DNA from: a virus
Length of the DNA: 24,046 nucleotides
Reading direction: 5' to 3' (one strand)
IMG/VR virus record: IMGVR_UViG_3300024348_000247
Coordinates: 1-24,046 of that record
Shown: positions 3,001 through 24,046 of the stretch, piece by piece
Numbering within the stretch: the stretch's first letter is position 1
Layout of the letters: each line of letters starts with the position of its first letter
The notes under the pieces: generated by a model
What the model was told of the DNA's origin: nothing
The model's database searches: none
Seen by the model: only the letters and a program-made list of their open reading frames with translations
Program-made: the position numbers and the translations under genes

Positions 3001-5441
3001 AAATGAAAAACCTTTCCGCAGACATAGGCAACAATCTTGAAATATCTAAAGCCGAATCGGGTGCAAAAGTATCTTCGTTTCAAAGAGAAATGTCGAATCC
3101 AAGACTTGATTACGGTTTAAATGCTACAGAAGTGACTAATCGAAAAATAGGATTAGAAAATAAAATAGTAGCAGAACAAAGAGTTCAAGAAGACGCAGCT
3201 ATAAACGCAGAAATCCAACAAAGAGTATTGCAAATGGCCGCAGAACAAGAAAATACAAGTGCTTTATACGCTCTCAATGAAACTATAGGTTTGTATATGG
3301 GTAAATTATTAGAACAAGATTTAGGAGGTGCGGGCGCTATCGCAGAAATGCAAAATAATCCTTATGTAGGAATGAATGAGCAACAGCTTTCTGCCGCTAA
3401 AAACGTTAATTTTACTAAGATGTACTCAGCAGTATCTTCTCCTGAAGAACTTAATAAAGATACTGCCGCTGCTGCTGCTGCTGCTGCCATAGCAGATCAA
3501 AAACAGATAGAAAAAGCTCAATCATATACTCCAAAACAATTAGCTCAATTTCAAGCTTATCAACGCACTCAACAATCACATAAAAATTTCAACTCATCTA
3601 ATACAATTGCTGCCGATTTGGAAAGTATAAAATTTAATGATATAAAAGATCCAATAAAACAAATAAAAGAATTAGATAAATTATCAGCGAACTACGCAAA
3701 AACAGGAGATATAGTTGCTAAAAATGCAATAGACCGTTATATAAAAGAAATACAAGCAAAAGGCACATCTTTAAAGATTACTAGACAACAAATCGATGCA
3801 GATAGAGCGCAAACCCAAGGTCTTGAACAACAAAGCCGTGTTCTAACAGAAAGATTTAAAAAAGGATATTCTGGAATGAGCGCCGCTTCTGACAGAATGA
3901 TAGAAGATTTAGTAGAAAGAACTCCTGAAAGATTTGCTGATGGTATGACAAACGCATTAATGGAAGTCGCCAAAGGAACCAAATCTATTGGTGATGCGTT
4001 TACAGATATGGCTATCAATTTTGGACAAGAAATTATGCAAGCCGTTATGAGAGCAGCAATTGGTAAAATGGTTGGAAGTGCGTTTACTGGTTTATTTGGT
4101 CAAGCTGGAGGTTCTGTGACTTCTAGTAAAATTGGTCGCCAAACTGGTGGTATAATACACGCGCAAAATGGTATGTATATCAGTGGTGGTCGTACTGGTG
4201 ATAAAAATCCCGCCATGTTAGAAGATGGCGAATATGTATTAAACAGAGAAGCTGTAAAATCTTTTGGCGGTCCAAGACAATTGGACAAAATGAATTATGA
4301 TATGGCCCCGCGATTTGGTAAGAAAATGCAAGGTGGTGGATCGTTTGACTTCTCTCCAGAAACAGCTTTCGACAAAGAAGGGCAACGCTATGATACTGGT
4401 AACTTAATGAGCAGCGGAAGTAATATTGGTCAAATTGATCAAGCGAATTATTCAGCTTATGCATACGCTGAAGATGCATATTTTACAAAAATGAGAGAAA
4501 AATCGGTTAGAGAAGAAGCGGAAAGAGTAGACAAAAAATTTAAAAAACAACAAAGAACTGCTCAATTAGTAAGCTCTATAGTAGGTGCGGTGGGCAGCGC
4601 AATGGTCGGGCATGGAATCAGCGGACTTGCCGCAAGTGCAGAAGCGTCAAAAGCGACACAGGCAGCGTCAGGTGCAATATCGACAACAGCAACTGCTACG
4701 AAAGAAACTGTGAATGGTTTAATAGCGGCTAAAGAAGCGGGAGGGAAAACTCTTATGACTTTTGTCAAAGAGCATTCTAATGAACTTATGGTAAATGGCA
4801 AAAGTTTTGATTATTTAAACTCACTTAACCAAGTAAAACAAGGTCTTGCTAGTCAAGATGTAACTGGCTTATTTTCTAAAGGAGTTGCGGGTAGTCGTCA
4901 GCTTACTTCTTTATTGCAACAACAAGGATTTCAAGCAGCAACAAAAGCAGCCGGTTCTGGATTTTTAACTAATACGTTTAAAGCTGCCACTACTAATGTT
5001 TCATCAATGTTTAACTCTAATAGAAGAAGGCAACAAAAAGGTGGTTTAGTGGGATTTAATAACGGCGGATTTGTTCCTTACGGATCTAGATTATCGGACA
5101 CAATCCCAGCGTTATTAACTGGTGGTGAATACGTTATGAATAATACAGCAGTAAAGAAATATGGCCTAGGTACGATGAGTTCAATGAATGCTGGCGCTTA
5201 TCAAGAAGGTGGCTCTACAGACACAACAAATAATAAAACAAATAATAACGCTACAAATATTGCTATCAATATCGATAAATCTGGAAAGTCTGTTTACGGA
5301 GGGGACTCTTCTAGTTATGAAAAACAAGATATAGTTATAACTAAAAACATGGCAAGACAAATTAATTCTATTGTTTTAAGATCGATGTCGAATGAAAAAC
5401 GTTATGGCGGTGAATTGTATAAAAATCCAACAAGAACATAA
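1..5441 (+). CDS. Tail tape measure protein, 5' partial (lambda gpH-like)
   Basis: This protein scaffolds tail tube assembly, sets tail length and is probably ejected with the DNA. The frame is open from nt 3, so at least 1812 residues are visible and the true start lies upstream; the TTG at 141 is only an internal codon. In order it has two NPNFA-type motifs (528-557 and 741-770), a poly-Ala run plus Pro-Val-Pro repeats (1035-1157), a Gly/Ala-rich hydrophobic stretch (about 1340-1440), long Gln/Lys/Glu-rich helical and coiled-coil sequence (about 1450-3850), and a lambda-type tape measure C-terminal segment (about 3871-4105, with FADGMTNAL and KGTKSIGDAF). After that come two copies of a GDxxPAMLxxGEYVxNxxAV-type motif (4146-4268, 5041-5166). 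At about 0.15 nm per residue the visible part alone implies a tail of roughly 270 nm or more. Its stop overlaps the next ATG by one base (TAATG). The family call is firm; the N-terminus is not visible. Confidence 0.92.
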   Translation, partial: FRSTAKGADENGDPNIFGPLYETFSRKALQLINKSNIFGEFVRGSVLQPRAKSSQTAFDDALLQDDGIIGLDFKGFPKKNLSGGSVAKHMNDKLKRVAQTDPEQAAKIKEGVMVFNETGHENQLPSEFGKNFLELAGTSYSQILKNSPDLVKGLSAETNSLLNNYVKNPEFLAMNAAKGFIPNFAYKQAVMGLEESMSGEKAVFDTKPFPHIRNKSQPTFSSAISDHGGLSNALSDSMRGQKHAGLMNRGYVPNFAIVDPNAAFPGLGYAALQDVEQQVFDKLNQELNRLTSDTSLTGEEMYDLSKSIKANALALHNTTGSAEIVTQSQKALDDSYHENMQAQRAAAAAAAAAAAAAAQPVPPVPPVPPVPPVPPVPPVPPVPPVVASRFEQFSEGLKKASTAIAIAGPMIAGLAEQVMYGNRKRADMTSEERMGQSALSTGLSSISTGAGIGASFGLPGAIIGGAIGSLVGFTSALNAATLTAEELSQLNQEQAQKAQVNISAASSYIEAQKSLTQMISSVASSSDIEMATKKLSDNFNQIKDVKLQEIFNATGGDVTLMTKQLQEYTNEVTKESARKSGLYGEDLKPEERASALSLGLGKEGSKDFISKVTEGLSNVEEKRKRALKFAPVGMVMGAPNLVEMSEIAKRVETEKLAESIVPKNEPERKSSVEALTKNLLDKNFEEVLKILEKINIVSGANKAAVDFKQAATRSFNQIFLDMEQVIAKSAFDVALSFEKDSGSRRIQSAVLDFSMNFQDSLNSFISNNLPDARKFDFTAATAGQKAQMLLQKSQQDYDKAIAEQANEKSIFLTKNSENLMKEFKSSFLPSQASAEFFQSNTLPQIQAGTFTGDAKSLSEQFKSASFEKAKSSFSEAGMAGGLDKNNITSELDRVTKVMEALADAGLVNENQYKKLQEAQKDLTDLQNQTVLFQNKNEMTKLQNVITTSVREQQQFEQKQANAKKEAEINKQLTDVKIKADKLLATEKAKVDKENLLRMEKMKNLSADIGNNLEISKAESGAKVSSFQREMSNPRLDYGLNATEVTNRKIGLENKIVAEQRVQEDAAINAEIQQRVLQMAAEQENTSALYALNETIGLYMGKLLEQDLGGAGAIAEMQNNPYVGMNEQQLSAAKNVNFTKMYSAVSSPEELNKDTAAAAAAAAIADQKQIEKAQSYTPKQLAQFQAYQRTQQSHKNFNSSNTIAADLESIKFNDIKDPIKQIKELDKLSANYAKTGDIVAKNAIDRYIKEIQAKGTSLKITRQQIDADRAQTQGLEQQSRVLTERFKKGYSGMSAASDRMIEDLVERTPERFADGMTNALMEVAKGTKSIGDAFTDMAINFGQEIMQAVMRAAIGKMVGSAFTGLFGQAGGSVTSSKIGRQTGGIIHAQNGMYISGGRTGDKNPAMLEDGEYVLNREAVKSFGGPRQLDKMNYDMAPRFGKKMQGGGSFDFSPETAFDKEGQRYDTGNLMSSGSNIGQIDQANYSAYAYAEDAYFTKMREKSVREEAERVDKKFKKQQRTAQLVSSIVGAVGSAMVGHGISGLAASAEASKATQAASGAISTTATATKETVNGLIAAKEAGGKTLMTFVKEHSNELMVNGKSFDYLNSLNQVKQGLASQDVTGLFSKGVAGSRQLTSLLQQQGFQAATKAAGSGFLTNTFKAATTNVSSMFNSNRRRQQKGGLVGFNNGGFVPYGSRLSDTIPALLTGGEYVMNNTAVKKYGLGTMSSMNAGAYQEGGSTDTTNNKTNNNATNIAINIDKSGKSVYGGDSSSYEKQDIVITKNMARQINSIVLRSMSNEKRYGGELYKNPTRT
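1035..1076 (+). repeat. Poly-alanine codon run (14 Ala) in tape measure gene
   Basis: Fourteen consecutive alanine codons alternate GCG and GCA in an imperfect order, directly before the Pro-Val-Pro repeat. The use of GCG here differs from the mostly A/T-ending codons of the surrounding gene. It probably encodes a flexible or helical linker and looks like the product of slippage or unequal recombination. Confidence 0.9.
1080..1157 (+). repeat. 9-bp tandem repeat CCAGTACCA encoding Pro-Val-Pro
   Basis: Eight perfect copies of CCAGTACCA run from 1080 to 1151, followed by a partial unit CCAGTA. They encode (PVP)8PV inside the tape measure protein, likely a stiff polyproline-like spacer between the N-terminal part and the hydrophobic/coiled-coil part. 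Perfect identity at the DNA level, including third positions, suggests recent expansion. The antisense frames over this repeat are open only because of its composition. Confidence 0.95.
3465..3488 (+). repeat. Short poly-alanine codon run (8 Ala) in tape measure gene
   Basis: Eight alanine codons (GCC, six GCT, GCC) lie within the helical region of the tape measure protein. This is a second homopolymeric alanine tract, with different codons from the GCG/GCA run at 1035, so the two tracts arose independently. It is probably a linker between helical segments. Confidence 0.85.
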
Positions 5442-6355
5442 TGAATAACGCGATTTTAAATTACGAAAACACGTTCTTTTTAGAAGGAACGGCTTTATCT
5501 GGAGTTTTATCGGTTGATGGATCATATAATATAGATTATAAGCCAATCAATGTTATAGGCCAAGGATTTGTAAAACAAGTTATCTCTTCGATACCAACTG
5601 CTGAGTTATCTTTATCAAGGTATTTGGTTAGTAACGATCCGATTTTAAATTTAACAGGACAACAGTCAAATTTTTCAGCAGTGCCAATAAATGCTGGATT
5701 GTATTATAAAAATAAATATTTTGCTTTTCAAAAAGGATATTTAAAATCAATTGGAATAAGCTGTTCAGTTGGAGAGATTCCTCAGATAGAATCGTCGTTT
5801 GATGTTTTTGGTAATATTGGTCCTAATTTTAATCCATCTGGTAATAATTATGCGGGTTCAGTGTTTGTTCCTCAAGTTAAAAATATAACAATAACTTGTA
5901 GAAACTCAACAACAAATAGAGTAAAAGATTTTAATATTAATTTTAATAATAAAAATTTACCTATTTATGCGTTGAGATCTCTAAGTCCAGAAATTCCTGT
6001 TGAGGTTAATATAGTTGGGCCTATAGAAGTAGAAACTTCTTTTACATTAGATGTGGACGATTATCAAACTAAACAGTTGTTTTCTGATTTAAACAGCAAT
6101 GGAGTTGCATCTTTTACAATTAATGTTAATGGTACTATTTTAAATGATTTACCTTTAACAGATCATAATGGTGTTACTCTTCAAGCAATAAATAGCAGTG
6201 TTCTAACAGACCTATTTTCTTTTTTAAAAATAGAAGATTCTGTTCCTTTGTTTAATTTTACTAATTCAAACGCTATAATACAATCAGAACAAGTTAGTTC
6301 GTCTTCAGATGATGTTGTTGGTGTAAAACTATCATATAAAACATATTTAAACTAA
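5441..6355 (+). CDS. Putative tail structural protein, tube-like beta fold (304 aa)
   Basis: Function is not certain. The 304-residue product is beta-rich, with no signal peptide or membrane segment. A central stretch around residues 98-125 (KGYLKSIGISCSVGEIP) resembles the 'SxxxSVGEIPxxxxxFEG' signature I associate with phage tail tube-like proteins; this is pattern recognition, not a search. The start codon overlaps the tape measure stop (TAATG), so the two are probably translationally coupled. It may be distantly paralogous to the 264-residue protein at 8098: both have a KSxxxS...P..ES/SAEFD/FD..GN block, a following xFxxSF/NF strand and a (K/T)DxxGxxLxxxxxSxVLT segment in the same order. 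It could be an additional tube-like ring or a distal tail/tail-tip protein. No Shine-Dalgarno sequence is seen. Confidence 0.75.
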   Translation: MNNAILNYENTFFLEGTALSGVLSVDGSYNIDYKPINVIGQGFVKQVISSIPTAELSLSRYLVSNDPILNLTGQQSNFSAVPINAGLYYKNKYFAFQKGYLKSIGISCSVGEIPQIESSFDVFGNIGPNFNPSGNNYAGSVFVPQVKNITITCRNSTTNRVKDFNINFNNKNLPIYALRSLSPEIPVEVNIVGPIEVETSFTLDVDDYQTKQLFSDLNSNGVASFTINVNGTILNDLPLTDHNGVTLQAINSSVLTDLFSFLKIEDSVPLFNFTNSNAIIQSEQVSSSSDDVVGVKLSYKTYLN

Positions 6356-15924: not shown

Positions 15925-16257
15925 ATGAAATTTCCTATTCAAGAAGAATTATTAAATGAATTAAAAGAAAAATCTAAAAATTCTGAAAAAGAAATATGCG
16001 GTTTTTTAATTAAAAAAAATAATGTTTATAGTGAATTTGTGGAATGTTTTAATTCGCATCCTGATCCTGTGAATTATTTTTTAATATCTCCGAAACAATG
16101 TGTTTTTGAAGATGACTCTATTTTATTTCATAGCCACCCGTTGCATTCAGATTTAATTGGTTTTTCGGATTGGGATTTAGAAAATCAACAATATTTTTAT
16201 TTAAAAATGGTTGTTTACAGTGTAAAGAATAATGAGTTTTACTATCAAACAATATGA
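15925..16257 (+). CDS. gpK-like JAMM/Mov34 metallopeptidase, standalone (110 aa)
   Basis: This small protein has the zinc-peptidase (JAMM/MPN) motif of lambda gpK's N-terminal half: Glu23 in KEICGFL, then His69-Ser-His71-Pro, Ser81 and Asp84 (FHSHP...GFSDWD). The spacing between His71 and Ser81 leaves nine residues rather than the canonical seven, a two-residue extension of the loop. Lambda gpK (about 200 residues) also carries a C-terminal NlpC/P60 domain; this 110-residue protein ends right after the JAMM fold and no NlpC/P60 gene lies nearby. It starts 2 nt after the gpL stop and ends in a 4-nt ATGA overlap with gpI, in the classical L-K-I order. It probably acts in tail-tip assembly; the substrate is unknown. 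Confidence 0.87.
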   Translation: MKFPIQEELLNELKEKSKNSEKEICGFLIKKNNVYSEFVECFNSHPDPVNYFLISPKQCVFEDDSILFHSHPLHSDLIGFSDWDLENQQYFYLKMVVYSVKNNEFYYQTI

Positions 16258-16838: not shown

Positions 16839-19800
16839 ATGTCTTTACCCTATTTTATAAAAAAATTAGATGTTGCAAAAATAAACTCCCAGAATAACGG
16901 AATGGGAGGAAAATTAGAAACAAATGAAAAATTGTTTGTAATAGACGCTTTGTGTGAAGGTCCGATTGAAGGTTTGGTGGATAAAGAAGGCAGTTTGTTG
17001 AAATACATTTCAGAGTCAACAGAGGGAGGTGTTGAAAGTATAATTTTAGGTAAAGGTATTTATTATAATGAAGTTCCTTTGTTAGATACAAACATAAATA
17101 AATTAAATTTTGTTACATCGGGCTTTGATATATCTTATGGTGAAGAAATCAATAATTATAAAAATACATATGCGTCAACTATTTTTCGTTATCTCAAAAA
17201 ACTATATTTAAATGATATTGAATATCTTCAACAATTAACAAAAGACCTTGCTGCCCCTGCGACGTTTACAAAAGGTCTTCTTTTTCATGAGGCTGATGGC
17301 GCTCAAGCCGATGCAATTAAAAAAATAATAACGGACGCCATAAATACTGGTCAAGTTTTTATACATAAAATAGTAAATAAATATTGTAATCATTTGTCTA
17401 TTAATTTAAAAATTGATTCTTTATTTTCTACTAGCGGCGGAAATACTCTGGTTGAAACTTTTTTATATGGAATTCAAATAGAAGAAGATAACACAGGTAT
17501 AAATTATAATTTTATTGGCACGATAACTGGAATATCAAAAGGAAGTTATGTTTTGGACATTCCGATACTTTTAAATCTAGACTCTCTGAAAAAAAGTACT
17601 TATTATGTAAAAGTAATAGCTTTAAGCGCAAAAATACCTCCATCCAATGCAAATAATTTTAAAGAAATATCTGTGTCTGCAATAATAGAAAGAGTTATTC
17701 CTAAAAATTCTTTTTCGTACCCATTTACCGCTGTTGTTAGATCTGGTGTTAGTTCAGAACATTTTAATAATGATCCTAAAAGAACATATGATTTAAAGCT
17801 TTTAAAAATAAAAACGCCAAAAAATTATGATTCAGAGGTTTCTCAATACGAAGGTAATTGGAATGGGCAGTTTGATAATTTTTTAAGATGGACCGATAAT
17901 CCCGCTTGGATTTTTTATGATTTATGCGTGAATAGTAGATATTCAATATCGAATGGAAATATTTCAGATAGAGATATAAATAAATGGGAACTATACAAAA
18001 TATCAAAATATTGCGACGAACTTGTTTTAGTCAATACTCCAAGTTTTTATAGTGAAGACTCTTTTACTGTTTTTGATGAAAATACTATTCTTGTAGATAA
18101 ATCTGATTTTAATAATGTAGCGTTGACTTTGAAAGATTTCAAACAAAAATATCCAGCTATCAATGATGACACAAATTCCGCAAGTAATGGTGGATTTAAT
18201 AATTCAATTATTTTTTTATATAATTTATCTAGCTCTAATAATCTTGAAATAGAGGAAAACTTTAAAAAAATAATCGTTTCGGTTGATGAAGTTGATTTAA
18301 GCGCAGATGGTAAGGAAATAATAGTTCAACCCGATGGTGAGGGAACTTCATTCAGGATTCAATTAATGAATGATTTTGGTCCAAGAAAGTTTTTTGAAAA
18401 AAATAATGACACTGAAAAATTTTTACAAGCTTTTATTAACGCTAATGTAAAAACGTATGATACAAAAAGTTTAATTTCTGACAGGATAAAAAATTCAAAA
18501 AATAACACGGAATCAGGTGCAAAAAATTTTATATTGTCTGAGCTTAATAAGCTAAAAAACCAAAGTAATTCTTTTGCTTCTAATTTTATTAAACAACCTT
18601 GTTTTTCACAAGATTTTTTGAAGGATGAATTTGGCAATAAAAGAGTAATAAAAGGTTTTTGTTTACCAAAAAAATTAAATTATAAAGATCCATTAGAAAA
18701 AAGATTTTCTTGTAACGTATTGATAGACAATGAAACTGAATTTTTAAAAATTTTAAATGATATAGCTTCAACTTTTAGAGGTTTAACTTATTGTAAAAAT
18801 AATTTAATTACAGCTACTGTTGATGTAGACAAGCCTATTTCATATTTATTTAACAACTCTAATGTAAAAGATGGTCATTTTTCTTATTCTAGCGGTAGTG
18901 TTGATGGTTCTTACTCTGTTGCAAAGGTTGTGTATAGAGATAAGTATTCGAACTATGATCAACAAGTAGAAATTGTGGAGGATTCTTATTTAATAAACAT
19001 TTATGGGATATCTACAAAAGAAATTTTAGGTTTTGGAATAACTTCTAGAGATCAAGCTAGAAGAATAGGAGAATGGTTGTTGGCTACAAATCGTTTTGAA
19101 AATCAAACTGTAACTTTTACAACTGACTTGCAGGGTTTGATGCTAAAACCTAGCGATGTAATTCAAATAGAAGATCAATATAAAAATAATTTTGTGTTAC
19201 AAGGAAGGGTAATTGAGGTTGATTATGTTAACAAATATATAATTATAGACAGAAAATTGAATTTAAATTGCACTGGCCAAATTATAAAGTTTATAGCTGA
19301 CGTACAAAACAAAACAATTTCTTCTTTAGACAATCAATTGTCTGTTAGCGACAGAGATATAGATGATTTAAATTCAAAAAATTTAATACAATTAAGAATC
19401 GAAAGAATTGAAAACAATGAAAATAAAATATATTTTCATCAAGATTTTAACTTTGTAGATTTTTTTAAAATAACCAAAAGCGCCCCTTTTATAATAGAAA
19501 ATGATAAGAGTAACATTGTGTCTGCTTTGTATAAAGTTGTTAGTATTTCTGAGGCGGATGATAATCAATATAGTTTTTTTTGCATAAGACATGATATTGA
19601 AAAATATAAACTTTTAACTAAAAGCTCTTTTAAGAAAAATAATCTCTTTGCAAATAATACTATTTCTTTCGCTGATTCGGACTCTTTGAAAGAGGTCGAT
19701 TTTTCAGGAATATCTGGTGATAAAGCCTACTCTATTGATAGTTATTCGATAAATCAGATAAATTCTTTATTCATTGATTATAATTTTAACGAAACAAAAG

Positions 19801-20120
19801 GATCTTTACTTTCCGTAATAAATAAAAACTACTATGTTTTGACTATCTTTGTTAGTCGTCTTTTCAATTTTATTCAAGAAAAAAGTTCGGCTAATGTAGA
19901 GTATTATAAAAACATTCAAAACATTATAAACCTTAAAGGCGGTTTACTATTTAAAATTATTTTAAAAAATCAATGTTTAAAATTCAAAATTCAAGGGACA
20001 GACCTTTCAGACAAAAGGGTTTTTTTAGGAAATTTTGTCACTTATCCGAATATAATTTCTTCAATTTCTGCTATTAAAATTTATGTTTTTGATAAAGATA
20101 ACAGAATTATTGATGTGTAA
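16839..20120 (+). CDS. Central tail hub / tip attachment protein J (lambda gpJ-like), 1093 aa
   Basis: gpJ forms the trimeric hub at the tail tip and, in lambda, carries the receptor-binding C-terminus. Family landmarks are in order: ALCEGPIEGLVD (residue ~37), a FLRWTDNPAWIFYDL...RYSI block (~348-370), DINKWELYKISKYCDELV (~380-396), RFSCNVLID...ASTFRGLTYC (~622-650), GFGITSRDQARRIGEWLLAT (~730) and GLMLKPSDVIQIEDQ (~767-781). About 210 extra residues sit between YCDE (391-394) and RFSCN (622) compared with lambda. After ~residue 800 the sequence is divergent, Asn/Lys/Ile-rich, and no FN3 series or adhesin is visible, so the host-binding part is probably on the next gene, which lies in the same frame after two TAA codons. 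The start is ATG in TAAAATG, 9 nt after gpI; there is no Shine-Dalgarno. Confidence 0.9.
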   Translation: MSLPYFIKKLDVAKINSQNNGMGGKLETNEKLFVIDALCEGPIEGLVDKEGSLLKYISESTEGGVESIILGKGIYYNEVPLLDTNINKLNFVTSGFDISYGEEINNYKNTYASTIFRYLKKLYLNDIEYLQQLTKDLAAPATFTKGLLFHEADGAQADAIKKIITDAINTGQVFIHKIVNKYCNHLSINLKIDSLFSTSGGNTLVETFLYGIQIEEDNTGINYNFIGTITGISKGSYVLDIPILLNLDSLKKSTYYVKVIALSAKIPPSNANNFKEISVSAIIERVIPKNSFSYPFTAVVRSGVSSEHFNNDPKRTYDLKLLKIKTPKNYDSEVSQYEGNWNGQFDNFLRWTDNPAWIFYDLCVNSRYSISNGNISDRDINKWELYKISKYCDELVLVNTPSFYSEDSFTVFDENTILVDKSDFNNVALTLKDFKQKYPAINDDTNSASNGGFNNSIIFLYNLSSSNNLEIEENFKKIIVSVDEVDLSADGKEIIVQPDGEGTSFRIQLMNDFGPRKFFEKNNDTEKFLQAFINANVKTYDTKSLISDRIKNSKNNTESGAKNFILSELNKLKNQSNSFASNFIKQPCFSQDFLKDEFGNKRVIKGFCLPKKLNYKDPLEKRFSCNVLIDNETEFLKILNDIASTFRGLTYCKNNLITATVDVDKPISYLFNNSNVKDGHFSYSSGSVDGSYSVAKVVYRDKYSNYDQQVEIVEDSYLINIYGISTKEILGFGITSRDQARRIGEWLLATNRFENQTVTFTTDLQGLMLKPSDVIQIEDQYKNNFVLQGRVIEVDYVNKYIIIDRKLNLNCTGQIIKFIADVQNKTISSLDNQLSVSDRDIDDLNSKNLIQLRIERIENNENKIYFHQDFNFVDFFKITKSAPFIIENDKSNIVSALYKVVSISEADDNQYSFFCIRHDIEKYKLLTKSSFKKNNLFANNTISFADSDSLKEVDFSGISGDKAYSIDSYSINQINSLFIDYNFNETKGSLLSVINKNYYVLTIFVSRLFNFIQEKSSANVEYYKNIQNIINLKGGLLFKIILKNQCLKFKIQGTDLSDKRVFLGNFVTYPNIISSISAIKIYVFDKDNRIIDV

Positions 20121-20129
20121 TATTAATAT

Positions 20130-23100
20130 ATGCAGATAATTACTGGATCAACAACTACTAGTTTTAGTAAATTTTCAATAGAAAGTTTATCGATTGCTAA
20201 TTTAAACGTTTTTTCAACTTTAGATTTTGAAGCTGATCCTTCGCTTCATGGTTTAGACGTTGAATCTAAATTTGTTTCAGGAACGATTAATCAATCTGTT
20301 TTAAATTTTAGTCTTTCTGTAAAAGATCCGGAATCTTTAGCGTTATCAAACGGTGCGCAAATAAATTCGCAATCATTTTCTGGGATAACTGTTGATTTAT
20401 TTTCAACTGGAGTTACTAGACAATTAATTACAAATTTAGTTTCAAATTCAATTGAAAGCTCTTTTAGTTTTAATAGTTCAGATCTAGCTAAATCTATAAT
20501 AAATTTTACTGGCGTTTCGGGTTTCAATAATACAAGAACTTTTTTTTTAGATTTTAAAACATTTGATGTTGCTGGTAATACAGATGTTTTTCGCGCATTA
20601 TTGAAATATCCAGAGTGTAAAATTACGGGAATTTTAATAGGGAATGCTAATCCAATAACTATCACCCCTTTGGTTTCGGGATTTGATAGTTTAAAAAGTA
20701 TTGATATTTATTCAGTTTTTGACAAAGACGTTGTTCCTACAAACATTGATGCTGGTTTTTTTGATTTAACTAGCGGTTATTATTATCAAATTTTTGATTA
20801 TGAAAATTTTAGATCTGAGCAAACTTTTCAAATACAAAATCCTGTTTCTGACATCAATGCATCGAATATTGCTTTGCCTTTTAATTTGGTTGCTATACCT
20901 AGCGATTATCTAAGCACAGGAGACTTCTTCTTAAGTTCAGGGGTTAAGGCTTCGTATTATAATACAGCGCAAGTTCCTACTTCAATAGATGATATAACTG
21001 GTTACATTAATTGCACACAAAATGTTTATGATAAAAATTTAGATATTCAGGCTGTTGCAAAGTGGAATGCAATAAAATCTAATAGACCTTTATCGTTTGA
21101 AGCTTATATTTATGAAGACGGGGCTACCGAAAATTCAAGTTATGTATTTACTTCTAATAATCCACAAGTAGAAGCGATAAGTTCAATAGTTTTCGGTACT
21201 GGGGACAATTTAATAAGAGATAATATAAATTCAACTTATTATTCTGGAACTACTCCCATTTTTGATAAGTTTGGAACTTCAGGTGTTAAATGGCAAGATC
21301 ATACTTTATTCATTGACAATTACTATTCTTTGCCTCTTGGTTTATATCCAACGGATAAAAAATTGAAGTATGTAACAGAGGTCAGAATTCCATCTGGAGT
21401 AATAACTTCTCCAGAAGTATATTTTGTATATGGATACAATACTGGAAACAATGAATTTTTTATATTGCCAAGCGGAGGGCTATATACAGGAAGTATTTAC
21501 ACAGGAACTTATTCAGGATATCGTAAGTTTTCTAATTTAATTCCTGATTTAGAGTTTACTTATTTAGGGGTATCTTATCCTGCTGTTGATCCAGGTGTTG
21601 GTAATTTAACGTCTGATATTTCTTTATCTTCTGATAATGTTACTCAAATTTATCTTGACGCTATAGACGACAATGGATTTAGTGTTGCAACTTGGTTGTC
21701 AAGTATTACAACTTTCATTAAAATTTCAAAGAAAAATGATATTAGTGTTTATCAAATACTAAATGTTAGTGCTGACACAAATGAAGGTGGTTGGTTTACT
21801 TTAGATGTAACAAGTTTTAGAGATAATAATGCTGTGGGTTTTCAAGTTAATGATCAATTAATAATTTCTCATGTTAAACCCAGTATTGAACAAGTTGTAA
21901 ATGAAACTGGTATTTTATTAGCGTCTAGAATAACAGGCTCTTCTGACTTTGTATTTTCTCAGTTTGAGCCTTCAATTCAATTTCCAGTTAAGCCTAATAA
22001 AAATTACGATGTAAAAGTTAGAGCTTCTTATCAAGATGGAAGCTACTCTGATTTTTCTGATATTCTAAGATTTACAAAAAATCAAATACAAACAGAAGTC
22101 TATAGAGTTTTTCCAAATAAATATGTTATTGATGGTCTAGGTGTTAGTGGATATATACCAAAATTCTCTGATTCAGACAGTTTAACAACAGGTACGTTAT
22201 ATTATAGCGGTAGTAATAATTTAGTATTTACTGAATTGCCAACAACGACAACTTCAGAAAATTTATATAAATTAGTAGTTGAAGATAATATTGTAAAAAA
22301 ACAATTAGATACAGGGAGCGGCACTTCTTTAATTGAAGAGTTTACTGTTACTGCTCATGGTTTTGTTGCTGGTGATGTTATTGGATATAATGGAGCAAAT
22401 TATTTTAAAGCGCGAGCAGACAGCGCCGCAAATGCAGAGGTATTGGGTGTGGTTAAGTCGGCAACTTTAAACACTTTTAAAGTAGTAATAGATGGATTAA
22501 TAACTGGTTTGACGAGTTTGACCGCTGGTGAAGTTTATTTTTTGTCAACTGCAACTGCTGGTACATGGCAAAATACAGAACCGTCAACTTATGGACAAGT
22601 TTCTAAACCTATTTTATTTGCATTATCCGCTACAACTGCAAATGTATTAACGTATCGTGGATTTGTAGTTGAACCTGTTAGTGGAACGTCAGGAACTTCT
22701 GGATCAAGTGGAACTTCAGGAAGCAGTGGAACTAGTGGAAGCAGCGGTTCGTCAGGAACAAGCGGCACTCCAACAGTGGCTAATACTTTAGCTAGATATA
22801 GTAATACTACTCAAACTATAGCTTCAAGCACAAATACCATAGTCGTTTGGAATAGCGATGATACTGCAAATACTCAAGGAAATACCAATTTAACTTTTAA
22901 TGGAACAGATAAATTTACAAATAGTTCTGGAGCTTCTTATATTGTAAATATTGATGGTTATGTGAGTTGGGACTCTGGAGGAACTGCTGGAACTGCTAGA
23001 TCAGTGTTTATAGTCAAGAATGGAATCGCTTCTTCTTTTCCAAGGTATTCTTACAATAGTATTCCAGCAAACAATGCTTATCCTGTAACGCATTTCAGTT

Positions 23101-24046
23101 CAACGTTAACATTAGCGAATAATGATTATTTTGAAATATATGTTTGGCATAATAATTCTTCCTCGCAAGATATAAATGTAAATACTTTTCCTGGTAGTAG
23201 AATTTTAATAAGTAAAATTGAAGGAGTGCAAGGGCCATCTGGAAGTAGTGGAACAAGCGGATCAAGTGGTACTAGTGGAAGCTCTGGAACAAGTGGGTCT
23301 AGTGGTACAAGCGGTTCTTCTGGTACAAGCGGATCATCTGGAACGAGCGGATCATCTGGTACAAGCGGATCATCTGGAACTAGCGGTTCTTCTGGTACAA
23401 GCGGATCTTCTGGTACAAGCGGATCATCTGGAACGAGCGGATCATCTGGAACGAGCGGATCTTCTGGTACAAGCGGATCTTCTGGAACAAGTGGATCATC
23501 TGGAACGAGCGGTATTACAGGTGGATTTGGTGGCGATACTTTATTTTTTAATGCTATACAATATCTTCCAGCTACTCCAGTTCCCGCAAGTGGCAAAATT
23601 TTATTTTATAATGATAATTTAAATACAACTATAATATACGTTTCTCGTTATGATAGAAGTGGTAATGATGCTCAATCATGGTTCACTTCAATTAGTAATG
23701 TCGGTGGTGCTATAAAAGCTAACGCTAAAATAACTGATATATCTGATAATCTTAGTTTTAATAATTATACAATAAATTCTTTATCTTATACAGCGGGTGG
23801 ACAGTATTGGACATTAAATGTTACTTCTACTGCAATAGGAGCCGCTGGAAACTTTCCTTTTACAGCTGCATTCTCTATAGCATTAACTGGTGGTGGTAGT
23901 TCAGGATCTTCTGGTACAAGCGGATCTTCTGGTACAAGCGGTTCTTCTGGAACAAGTGGATCTAGCGGTTCTTCTGGAACAAGTGGTTCTTCTGGAACAA
24001 GTGGATCTAGCGGTTCTTCTGGAGCAAGTGGTTCTTCTGGAACAAG
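20130..24046 (+). CDS. Giant tail fibre with collagen-like blocks and C1q-like domain, 3' partial
   Basis: The frame is open from ATG at 20130 to the window end, at least 1305 residues. Reading order: beta-rich N-terminal region (1-490) with FN3-like stretches (e.g. TSGYYYQIFDYENF); beta module copy 1 (491-583); an FN3-like unit (~610-655, KNYDVKVRASYQDGSYSDFS); a fibre module (~738-850, HGFVAGDVIGYNGANYFKA...YGQVSKPILFAL); collagen-like block 1 (852-881); a C1q/TNF-like jelly roll (~882-1034, with ASYIVNIDGYVSW and NNDYFEIYVWHNNS); collagen-like block 2 (1035-1127); beta module copy 2 (~1155-1254); and collagen-like block 3 from 1256 to the edge. The protein is probably a trimeric receptor-binding fibre attached at the J hub. 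It starts 9 nt after the J stop, in frame with J, and no Shine-Dalgarno is present. Truncation is by the window edge, not by mutation. Confidence 0.88.
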   Translation, partial: MQIITGSTTTSFSKFSIESLSIANLNVFSTLDFEADPSLHGLDVESKFVSGTINQSVLNFSLSVKDPESLALSNGAQINSQSFSGITVDLFSTGVTRQLITNLVSNSIESSFSFNSSDLAKSIINFTGVSGFNNTRTFFLDFKTFDVAGNTDVFRALLKYPECKITGILIGNANPITITPLVSGFDSLKSIDIYSVFDKDVVPTNIDAGFFDLTSGYYYQIFDYENFRSEQTFQIQNPVSDINASNIALPFNLVAIPSDYLSTGDFFLSSGVKASYYNTAQVPTSIDDITGYINCTQNVYDKNLDIQAVAKWNAIKSNRPLSFEAYIYEDGATENSSYVFTSNNPQVEAISSIVFGTGDNLIRDNINSTYYSGTTPIFDKFGTSGVKWQDHTLFIDNYYSLPLGLYPTDKKLKYVTEVRIPSGVITSPEVYFVYGYNTGNNEFFILPSGGLYTGSIYTGTYSGYRKFSNLIPDLEFTYLGVSYPAVDPGVGNLTSDISLSSDNVTQIYLDAIDDNGFSVATWLSSITTFIKISKKNDISVYQILNVSADTNEGGWFTLDVTSFRDNNAVGFQVNDQLIISHVKPSIEQVVNETGILLASRITGSSDFVFSQFEPSIQFPVKPNKNYDVKVRASYQDGSYSDFSDILRFTKNQIQTEVYRVFPNKYVIDGLGVSGYIPKFSDSDSLTTGTLYYSGSNNLVFTELPTTTTSENLYKLVVEDNIVKKQLDTGSGTSLIEEFTVTAHGFVAGDVIGYNGANYFKARADSAANAEVLGVVKSATLNTFKVVIDGLITGLTSLTAGEVYFLSTATAGTWQNTEPSTYGQVSKPILFALSATTANVLTYRGFVVEPVSGTSGTSGSSGTSGSSGTSGSSGSSGTSGTPTVANTLARYSNTTQTIASSTNTIVVWNSDDTANTQGNTNLTFNGTDKFTNSSGASYIVNIDGYVSWDSGGTAGTARSVFIVKNGIASSFPRYSYNSIPANNAYPVTHFSSTLTLANNDYFEIYVWHNNSSSQDINVNTFPGSRILISKIEGVQGPSGSSGTSGSSGTSGSSGTSGSSGTSGSSGTSGSSGTSGSSGTSGSSGTSGSSGTSGSSGTSGSSGTSGSSGTSGSSGTSGSSGTSGSSGTSGITGGFGGDTLFFNAIQYLPATPVPASGKILFYNDNLNTTIIYVSRYDRSGNDAQSWFTSISNVGGAIKANAKITDISDNLSFNNYTINSLSYTAGGQYWTLNVTSTAIGAAGNFPFTAAFSIALTGGGSSGSSGTSGSSGTSGSSGTSGSSGSSGTSGSSGTSGSSGSSGASGSSGT
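21600..21878 (+). repeat. Beta module, copy 1 (protein-level repeat in fibre)
   Basis: It encodes GNLTSDISLSSDNVTQIYLD, DNGFSVATWLSSI, IKISKKNDISVYQIL, WFTLDVTSF and a closing IISHV strand. The same order of elements recurs at 23592-23891, so this is a diverged duplicate domain with little DNA identity. I have seen this module type beside collagen-like blocks in phage fibres. Confidence 0.65.
22683..22772 (+). repeat. Collagen-like Gly-X-Y block 1 (10 triplets)
   Basis: Ten uninterrupted Gly-X-Y triplets (GTS/GSS, ending GTP) join the fibre module upstream to the C1q-like domain downstream. X and Y are almost only Ser or Thr. It likely forms a short collagen-like triple-helical or flexible trimeric stalk. 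Confidence 0.9.
22773..23231 (+). other. C1q/TNF-like jelly-roll domain between collagen-like stalks
   Basis: About 153 residues, starting TVANTLARYSNTTQTIAS and ending SRILISKIEGVQ. The pattern TxTIVVWN...DTQGN..F...FTNSSGASYIVNIDGYVSW, then RSVFIVKNG, FSSTLTLANNDYFEIYVW and a final SRILISKI strand follows the ten-strand C1q-type fold. It is flanked on both sides by Gly-X-Y repeats, the arrangement typical of C1q-family trimeric proteins. Confidence 0.65.
23232..23510 (+). repeat. Collagen-like Gly-X-Y block 2 (31 triplets)
   Basis: One GPS triplet is followed by 30 perfectly alternating GSS and GTS triplets: an 18-bp unit repeated 15 times with consensus GGA TCW TCT GGW ACR AGC and synonymous drift, mostly at third positions. 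There is no proline after the first triplet. Open frames in other registers and on the complement are artefacts of this periodicity. Confidence 0.95.
23592..23891 (+). repeat. Beta module, copy 2 (protein-level repeat in fibre)
   Basis: It encodes GKILFYNDNLNTTIIYVS, RSGNDAQSWFTSI, AKITDISDNLSFNNYTI, YWTLNVTST and a closing FSIALTG strand, matching element by element the module at 21600-21878. It lies between collagen-like blocks 2 and 3. Confidence 0.65.
23895..24046 (+). repeat. Collagen-like Gly-X-Y block 3, continues past window end
   Basis: At least 16 complete triplets of the GSS/GTS type, with one GAS variant near the end, begin right after module copy 2 and run off the window. Unlike block 2 the strict alternation is broken by GSS-GSS pairs, giving a larger period in part of the block. 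Its 3' boundary and the fibre's tip lie outside. Confidence 0.93.

Follow-up and report, generated by a model that had tools for sequence, protein, structure and literature searches.

This locus raises the question of what kind of fibre places a C1q-like domain between two Gly-X-Y repeats, and of where such a domain stands among its relatives. The window, a 24,046-base IMG/VR virus record, is a fragment whose genes form the lambda-like tail module of a siphophage, in which the genes for the tape measure, the minor tail proteins, tail assembly and a gpJ-like protein stand in order, with the fibre ORF lying after J (Table 1). Within this module, matches were obtained to the PHROGs phrog_339 (weak, 0.0012), phrog_30, phrog_32 and phrog_31 and to the Pfam families Phage_min_tail, Phage_tail_L and Phage-tail_3. 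The weak tape-measure match lies on a long 5'-open ORF, and small tail assembly proteins are also encoded. The fibre ORF is likely to encode a long tail fibre of the phage, as the sequence-only reading had supposed, since it adjoins the gpJ homologue. The PHROG tail fibre matches of the whole ORF were not used for membership because they lay mostly on the repeat and were gone when the domain alone was searched. It should also be noted that the 5'-open tape-measure-like ORF contains a nine-base tandem repeat (1080–1157, 8.7 copies, 100% match) which encodes a Pro-Pro-Val tract preceded by a run of alanines, and that a 110-aa ORF (15925–16257) matches only residues 305–388 of the 544 of phrog_30 (minor tail protein), as if it were a shortened form of that protein.

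Table 1. Features of the fibre ORF and of the gene directly upstream of it in the window.
Feature	Coordinates	Strand	Remarks
Lambda gpJ-like tail tip protein	16839..20120	+	Directly upstream of the fibre ORF; phrog_31, E 1.6e-97
Fibre ORF	20130..24046 (ORF 20130-24044)	+	At least 1305 aa; no stop before the contig ends within a Gly-X-Y repeat
N-terminal half, residues 1-658	20130..22103	+	52% identity over 470 aa with the N-terminus of L070, whose bead is different
Module B, residues 492-589	21603..21896	+	Resembles the later bead B'; missing in L070
Conserved module, residues 659-850	22104..22679	+	Precedes the first Gly-X-Y run; 25 viral loci
First Gly-X-Y run, 10 triplets, residues 852-881	22683..22772	+	
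Predicted C1q/TNF-like jelly-roll domain, residues 882-1032	22773..23225	+	Model and structure matches
Second Gly-X-Y run, 33 triplets, residues 1032-1130	23223..23519	+	Mostly (GSSGTS)n
Second bead B', residues 1130-1252	23517..23885	+	Resembles module B; model pLDDT 37
Third Gly-X-Y run, at least 16 triplets, residues 1256-1303 (23895-24038)	23895..24046	+	Cut by the contig end

The longest Gly-X-Y run of the fibre ORF, at 33 triplets, compares with a maximum of 6 when the whole ORF was shuffled 2000 times and of 7 in as many shuffles of the 99-residue repeat alone. Pfam Collagen (PF01391) matched the ORF with an E value of 1.2e-20 (73.5 bits, cut-off 27.2), while the stretch covering the first run (10 triplets) and the beginning of the second scored 17.8, below this cut-off. 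The coordinates given earlier for the two stalks hold. They had previously been counted as 10 and 31 triplets; the first figure is right, and the second left out a GVQ at the start and a GIT at the end of the run. The second bead and the third Gly-X-Y run that follow were absent from that account. Long overlapping ORFs across the repeat (23126–23596 on the minus strand and 23218–23622 on the plus strand in another frame) mirror the triplet repeat, with no evidence here that they are genes.

An AlphaFold2 model of residues 882–1032, made with seven sequences, was all-beta, with the best of five models reaching a pLDDT of 74.3 and a pTM of 0.74 and the remaining four being weaker (pLDDT 68 to 50). 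Foldseek searches of the PDB with this model gave the central spike of phage phi812 as the best match (E 1.7e-7, TM 0.75) of 45 at E ≤ 0.001, among them the TNF-like lectin PLTL. The VIA-align Z scores were 15.1 for the phi812 spike (9eul), 13.1 for BclA (1wck), 13.0 for the C1q domain of Caprin-2 (4oul), 12.7 for PRD1 P5 (1yq5), 12.2 for C1q (1pk6), 11.9 for the short fibre of cyanophage A-1(L) (8ke9) and 11.8 for collagen X NC1 (1gr3), over 123–138 residues and a model range of about 1–151. In addition, 390 viral models matched the domain model at E ≤ 0.001, several of them named as C1q domain proteins. The predicted fold of the domain can be regarded as settled, namely a C1q/TNF jelly roll. 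The sequence-only reading had assigned a jelly roll of the C1q kind to residues 882–1034, and the model agrees with it, no other fold having been predicted.

Residues 882–1032 have no direct match in Pfam or PHROGs, and the window domain gave no direct profile match to Pfam C1q (PF00386) above its curated cut-off. A distant relative, L021, does pass it (33.9 vs 23.7 bits, 4.1e-08; one of 13 aligned members), so that the proposed check against C1q family profiles succeeds through a relative and fails for the window domain. Among 50,697 phage records neither the domain nor the whole ORF had a direct homologue, a PDB sequence search returned nothing meaningful, and the prokaryote genome contigs searched with alignment A4 gave no match. 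A first scan of viral contigs with the domain found seven loci at 75–99% identity and one (L009) at 34%, and a profile search extended the domain relatives to L018–L021. L009 is a 518-kb virus contig in which 3585–5465 encodes a Pro/Thr-rich collagen-like protein (GPTGPTG-type) that matches Mtd_N weakly near the start and is closed by the relative of the window domain.

The position of the domain was tabulated in 27 loci, comprising 20 close loci (the window, L002–L008, L042 and L055–L065) and seven distant ones. In all 20 close loci Gly-X-Y triplets lie directly on both sides of the domain, which upholds the internal placement first noticed in the window. The run before the domain has 10 triplets in nine of these loci and 4 triplets in the other 11. 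The run after it has 11 to 150 triplets, counts which are lower bounds in all close loci except the window because the other 19 contigs end inside the repeat. The domain ends the protein in all seven distant relatives (L009, L019, L020 and L066–L069), with 3 to 23 residues after the match. With L066 as query, and not the window, 10 phage records were matched, mostly of Pelagibacter phages, and in all nine that were inspected (the tenth being a RefSeq copy of one of them, and a second place in HTVC115P being left out) the domain match stops 54–90 bases before the end of the CDS. Among solved phage relatives with readable ends, the domain is C-terminal in PRD1 P5 (to residue 340) and in the cyanophage A4 structure (to residue 372 of a chain of 372).

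In none of the 20 close loci does the domain form a C-terminal head to the Gly-X-Y stretch, as it would in a C1q-type collagen protein; it is internal in each. From these positions, the domain appears to be a tip domain that has turned internal in the clade of the window fibre. Since the close loci form one clade and several are nearly identical, the internal position probably represents one evolutionary event and not 20. The likeness to C1q proteins and spore-surface filaments that had been drawn from the sequence is thus one of fold but not of position.

In C1q and collagen X the jelly roll adjoins Gly-X-Y, and BclA of the Bacillus exosporium has a bacterial Gly-X-Y stalk, rich in Pro and Thr, with a C1q-like knob. 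The gC1q domains of C1q, collagen X NC1 and Caprin-2 share the predicted jelly roll of the window but are C-terminal, whereas the window domain is internal and has no direct Pfam C1q match; the BclA knob, similar in fold, is also terminal. The phi812 central spike, the A-1(L) short fibre and PRD1 P5 are phage attachment proteins of the same fold, but the P5 knob ends its chain and for none of the three is a long Ser/Thr Gly-X-Y stalk listed beyond the knob. The fibres of contractile injection systems do contain C1q domains and collagen shafts (PMC12923769, in excerpt). The prophage fibre EPclB of Escherichia coli O157:H7 resembles the window fibre in having two Gly-X-Y domains parted by an internal globular repeat (Pf2) and lengths that vary by triplets. 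It differs in that its bead is Pf2 and not C1q-like, its collagen is Pro-rich and charged, and it has a coiled coil and PfN and PfC ends (PMC3368898, in excerpt). With this Pf2 repeat as a precedent, the idea of an internal bead is not in itself novel. A literature search, mostly at surface level, found no description of a phage C1q-like domain between two Gly-X-Y stretches. The window fibre is a real, recurrent and unusual arrangement of known parts.

The nature of the stalks was considered from their composition and from the changes between their repeat units. In the 59 triplets of the window Pro occurs once at X and once at Y (2 of the 118 X/Y positions), there are no charged residues, and Ser or Thr occupies 112 of the 118 positions. 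Viral, bacterial and human collagen groups have 22–48% Pro at X together with many charged residues (PMC3368898, Table 4), and the collagen of EPclA has been shown to be triple-helical (same excerpt). The Pro-rich and charged X/Y positions of characterised collagens are not found in the window stalk and, because both kinds of residue are almost absent, its likeness to collagen is one of periodicity only. The earlier term 'collagen-like' is accordingly justified by the Gly-X-Y period and the PF01391 match but not by composition. Such a composition would suit flexible Gly/Ser/Thr tethers that form no triple helix, loose strands linking trimeric beads of which the C1q-like knob would be one, and this alternative is retained as a tentative possibility, somewhat short of even odds.

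A loose tether would have no need of regular glycines, and it is here that the codon changes bear on the matter. A comparison of codons one 18-base unit apart, which covered the window and seven relatives, gave 295 silent against 6 non-silent changes at Gly (expected silent share one third), in runs whose selection by a mostly-Gly pattern favours silent changes at Gly. The corresponding counts were 261 vs 287 at X and 394 vs 126 at Y, so that Gly is kept far more strictly than X. Glycine also remains at every third place in some relatives whose units have changed to GIN, GAN or GKN, although duplication of units can itself preserve a period for a while. The second runs take up all the sequence between the domain and whatever comes next, be it another domain or the end of the contig, and in L005–L008, four near-identical relatives, two or three Ser replace Gly within the repeat. 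A structural role for the stalk glycines is likely, the type of rod being putative. One more specific proposal is that the proline-free and charge-free Gly-(Ser/Thr)-Ser triplets of the stalks form a trimeric rod that differs from ordinary collagen (it might be polyglycine-II-like or glycan-stabilised). In it the C1q-like trimer would serve as an elbow node inside the fibre, and recombination between repeats would exchange beads and alter the lengths of the stalks. As a whole this proposal is considered improbable.

The conserved module that precedes the first run offers a view of what may follow it. Of its 25 viral loci, 12 continue with a complete C1q-like domain and one with a cut domain, four contigs end before the domain, four show Gly-X-Y and then the contig end, three have other sequence without Gly-X-Y, and one (L049, the same locus as L070) has a different bead; the contigs of L005–L008 are among the 25. 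This bead, of about 230 residues, lies between 16 and 52 + 25 triplets and is followed by a tip-like region. Besides the N-terminal match given in Table 1, a further 154 residues of L070 are 67% identical to the window fibre. Module B is missing from L070, where the match jumps from residue 469 to 580, and since module B also resembles bead B' (33% over 69 aa) it acts as a movable module. A relative of the L049 end, L071, starts in 25 triplets and continues for 457 aa to a stop. The tip-like regions of L070 and L071 suggest what may lie beyond the end of the window, the link from L071 to the window fibre running through L049/L070 only; the L071 record contains neither the fibre module nor a C1q-like domain.

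For bead B' no relatives were found in the viral contigs, nor any match in six records searched for it. Homology to a bead of L103 is not claimed (E 0.025), and the model of B', made from two sequences, was not used. The locus in question (L103, 1358–4508) is another fibre, with runs of 38, 18 and 35 triplets, a bead weakly similar to B' between the first two and a GIGTT-type region after the last. Since all 19 other close contigs stop inside the Gly-X-Y repeat, fibre tips are systematically lost from assemblies, and the stretch after residue 1130 is seen in the window alone. The far ends of the repeat-broken contigs L003, L005 and L008 were considered as a place for the other half of the fibre; among the matches listed, one end only was involved.

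Repeats are classic points of misjoining, and this, together with a B' region seen in a single contig and lacking viral relatives, raises the prospect that two unrelated fibre genes were joined at a shared repeat during assembly. The order of Gly-X-Y, domain and Gly-X-Y is no assembly accident, however, as it is found in 19 other contigs, with the junctions recurring in all 20 loci. Only the B' part could be chimeric, and it is resembled by module B of the same ORF; an assembly chimera is thus regarded as very unlikely.

The favoured reading, to which a probability of roughly 60% is given, is that of a long fibre of a lambda-like siphophage in which a C1q/TNF knob, usually terminal, has been overtaken by a stalk, a second bead and more stalk. 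Three chains would meet in the C1q-like jelly roll, which would set their register and hold the trimer part way along the fibre. The N- and C-terminal ends of C1q chains both lie at the base of the trimer (PMC5153404, in the passage available). The long outgoing Ser/Thr-rich Gly-X-Y stalk would therefore exit beside the short incoming linker, leaving the knob at an elbow or on the side of the fibre and not as a coaxial bead. This elbow is suggested by the topology of the fold and by that one passage, not by the coordinates of the present model. The real tip, with the main host contact, would lie beyond the contig end, and labour may be divided between knob and tip. In favour of this reading, the orthologous fibre L070 carries a different bead in the corresponding position and goes on from there to its tip-like region.

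The sequence-only reading had instead seen beads on a string, with collagen triple helix, C1q trimer and collagen triple helix on one axis and the knob as a node in a straight rod. The order and periodicity of the Gly-X-Y runs are in keeping with this, as is EPclB, for which electron microscopy suggests three globules and two stalks (PMC3368898, in excerpt). The shared base of the C1q chain ends fits it poorly, and so does the upstream run of just 4 triplets in 11 of the 20 close loci, which is too short for a rod there. With almost no Pro and no charge in the stalk as well, the coaxial arrangement is thought unlikely.

It may also be asked whether the internal domain, and not a distal tip, is the main receptor binder, a glycan lectin shown laterally with the tip as a second binder. 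Fibre tips of the TNF-like kind are sugar binders in Bdellovibrio (PMC10769870, in excerpt), PLTL is among the structural matches, and the different bead of L070 is what would be expected of swappable binders. However, the domain is conserved in the close clade, with a dN/dS of about 0.17–0.3 in three comparisons, and in phage HS1 the needle knob, also TNF-like, reportedly does not seem to give host specificity (PMC3741392, in excerpt). A main binding role for the domain is accordingly held to be rather doubtful.

Under the favoured reading of an overtaken knob, breaks at the Gly-X-Y repeat explain why such tips are missing from metagenomes. If the elbow node and the non-collagen rod are both true, this would be a fibre design for which no description was found in the literature searched, and if the nearly proline-free stalk does form a trimeric rod, the range of sequences allowed in triplet-repeat stalks would be broader. 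The keeping of a terminal knob inside a longer fibre could be a simple route by which phages lengthen their fibres and stack binding or folding modules.
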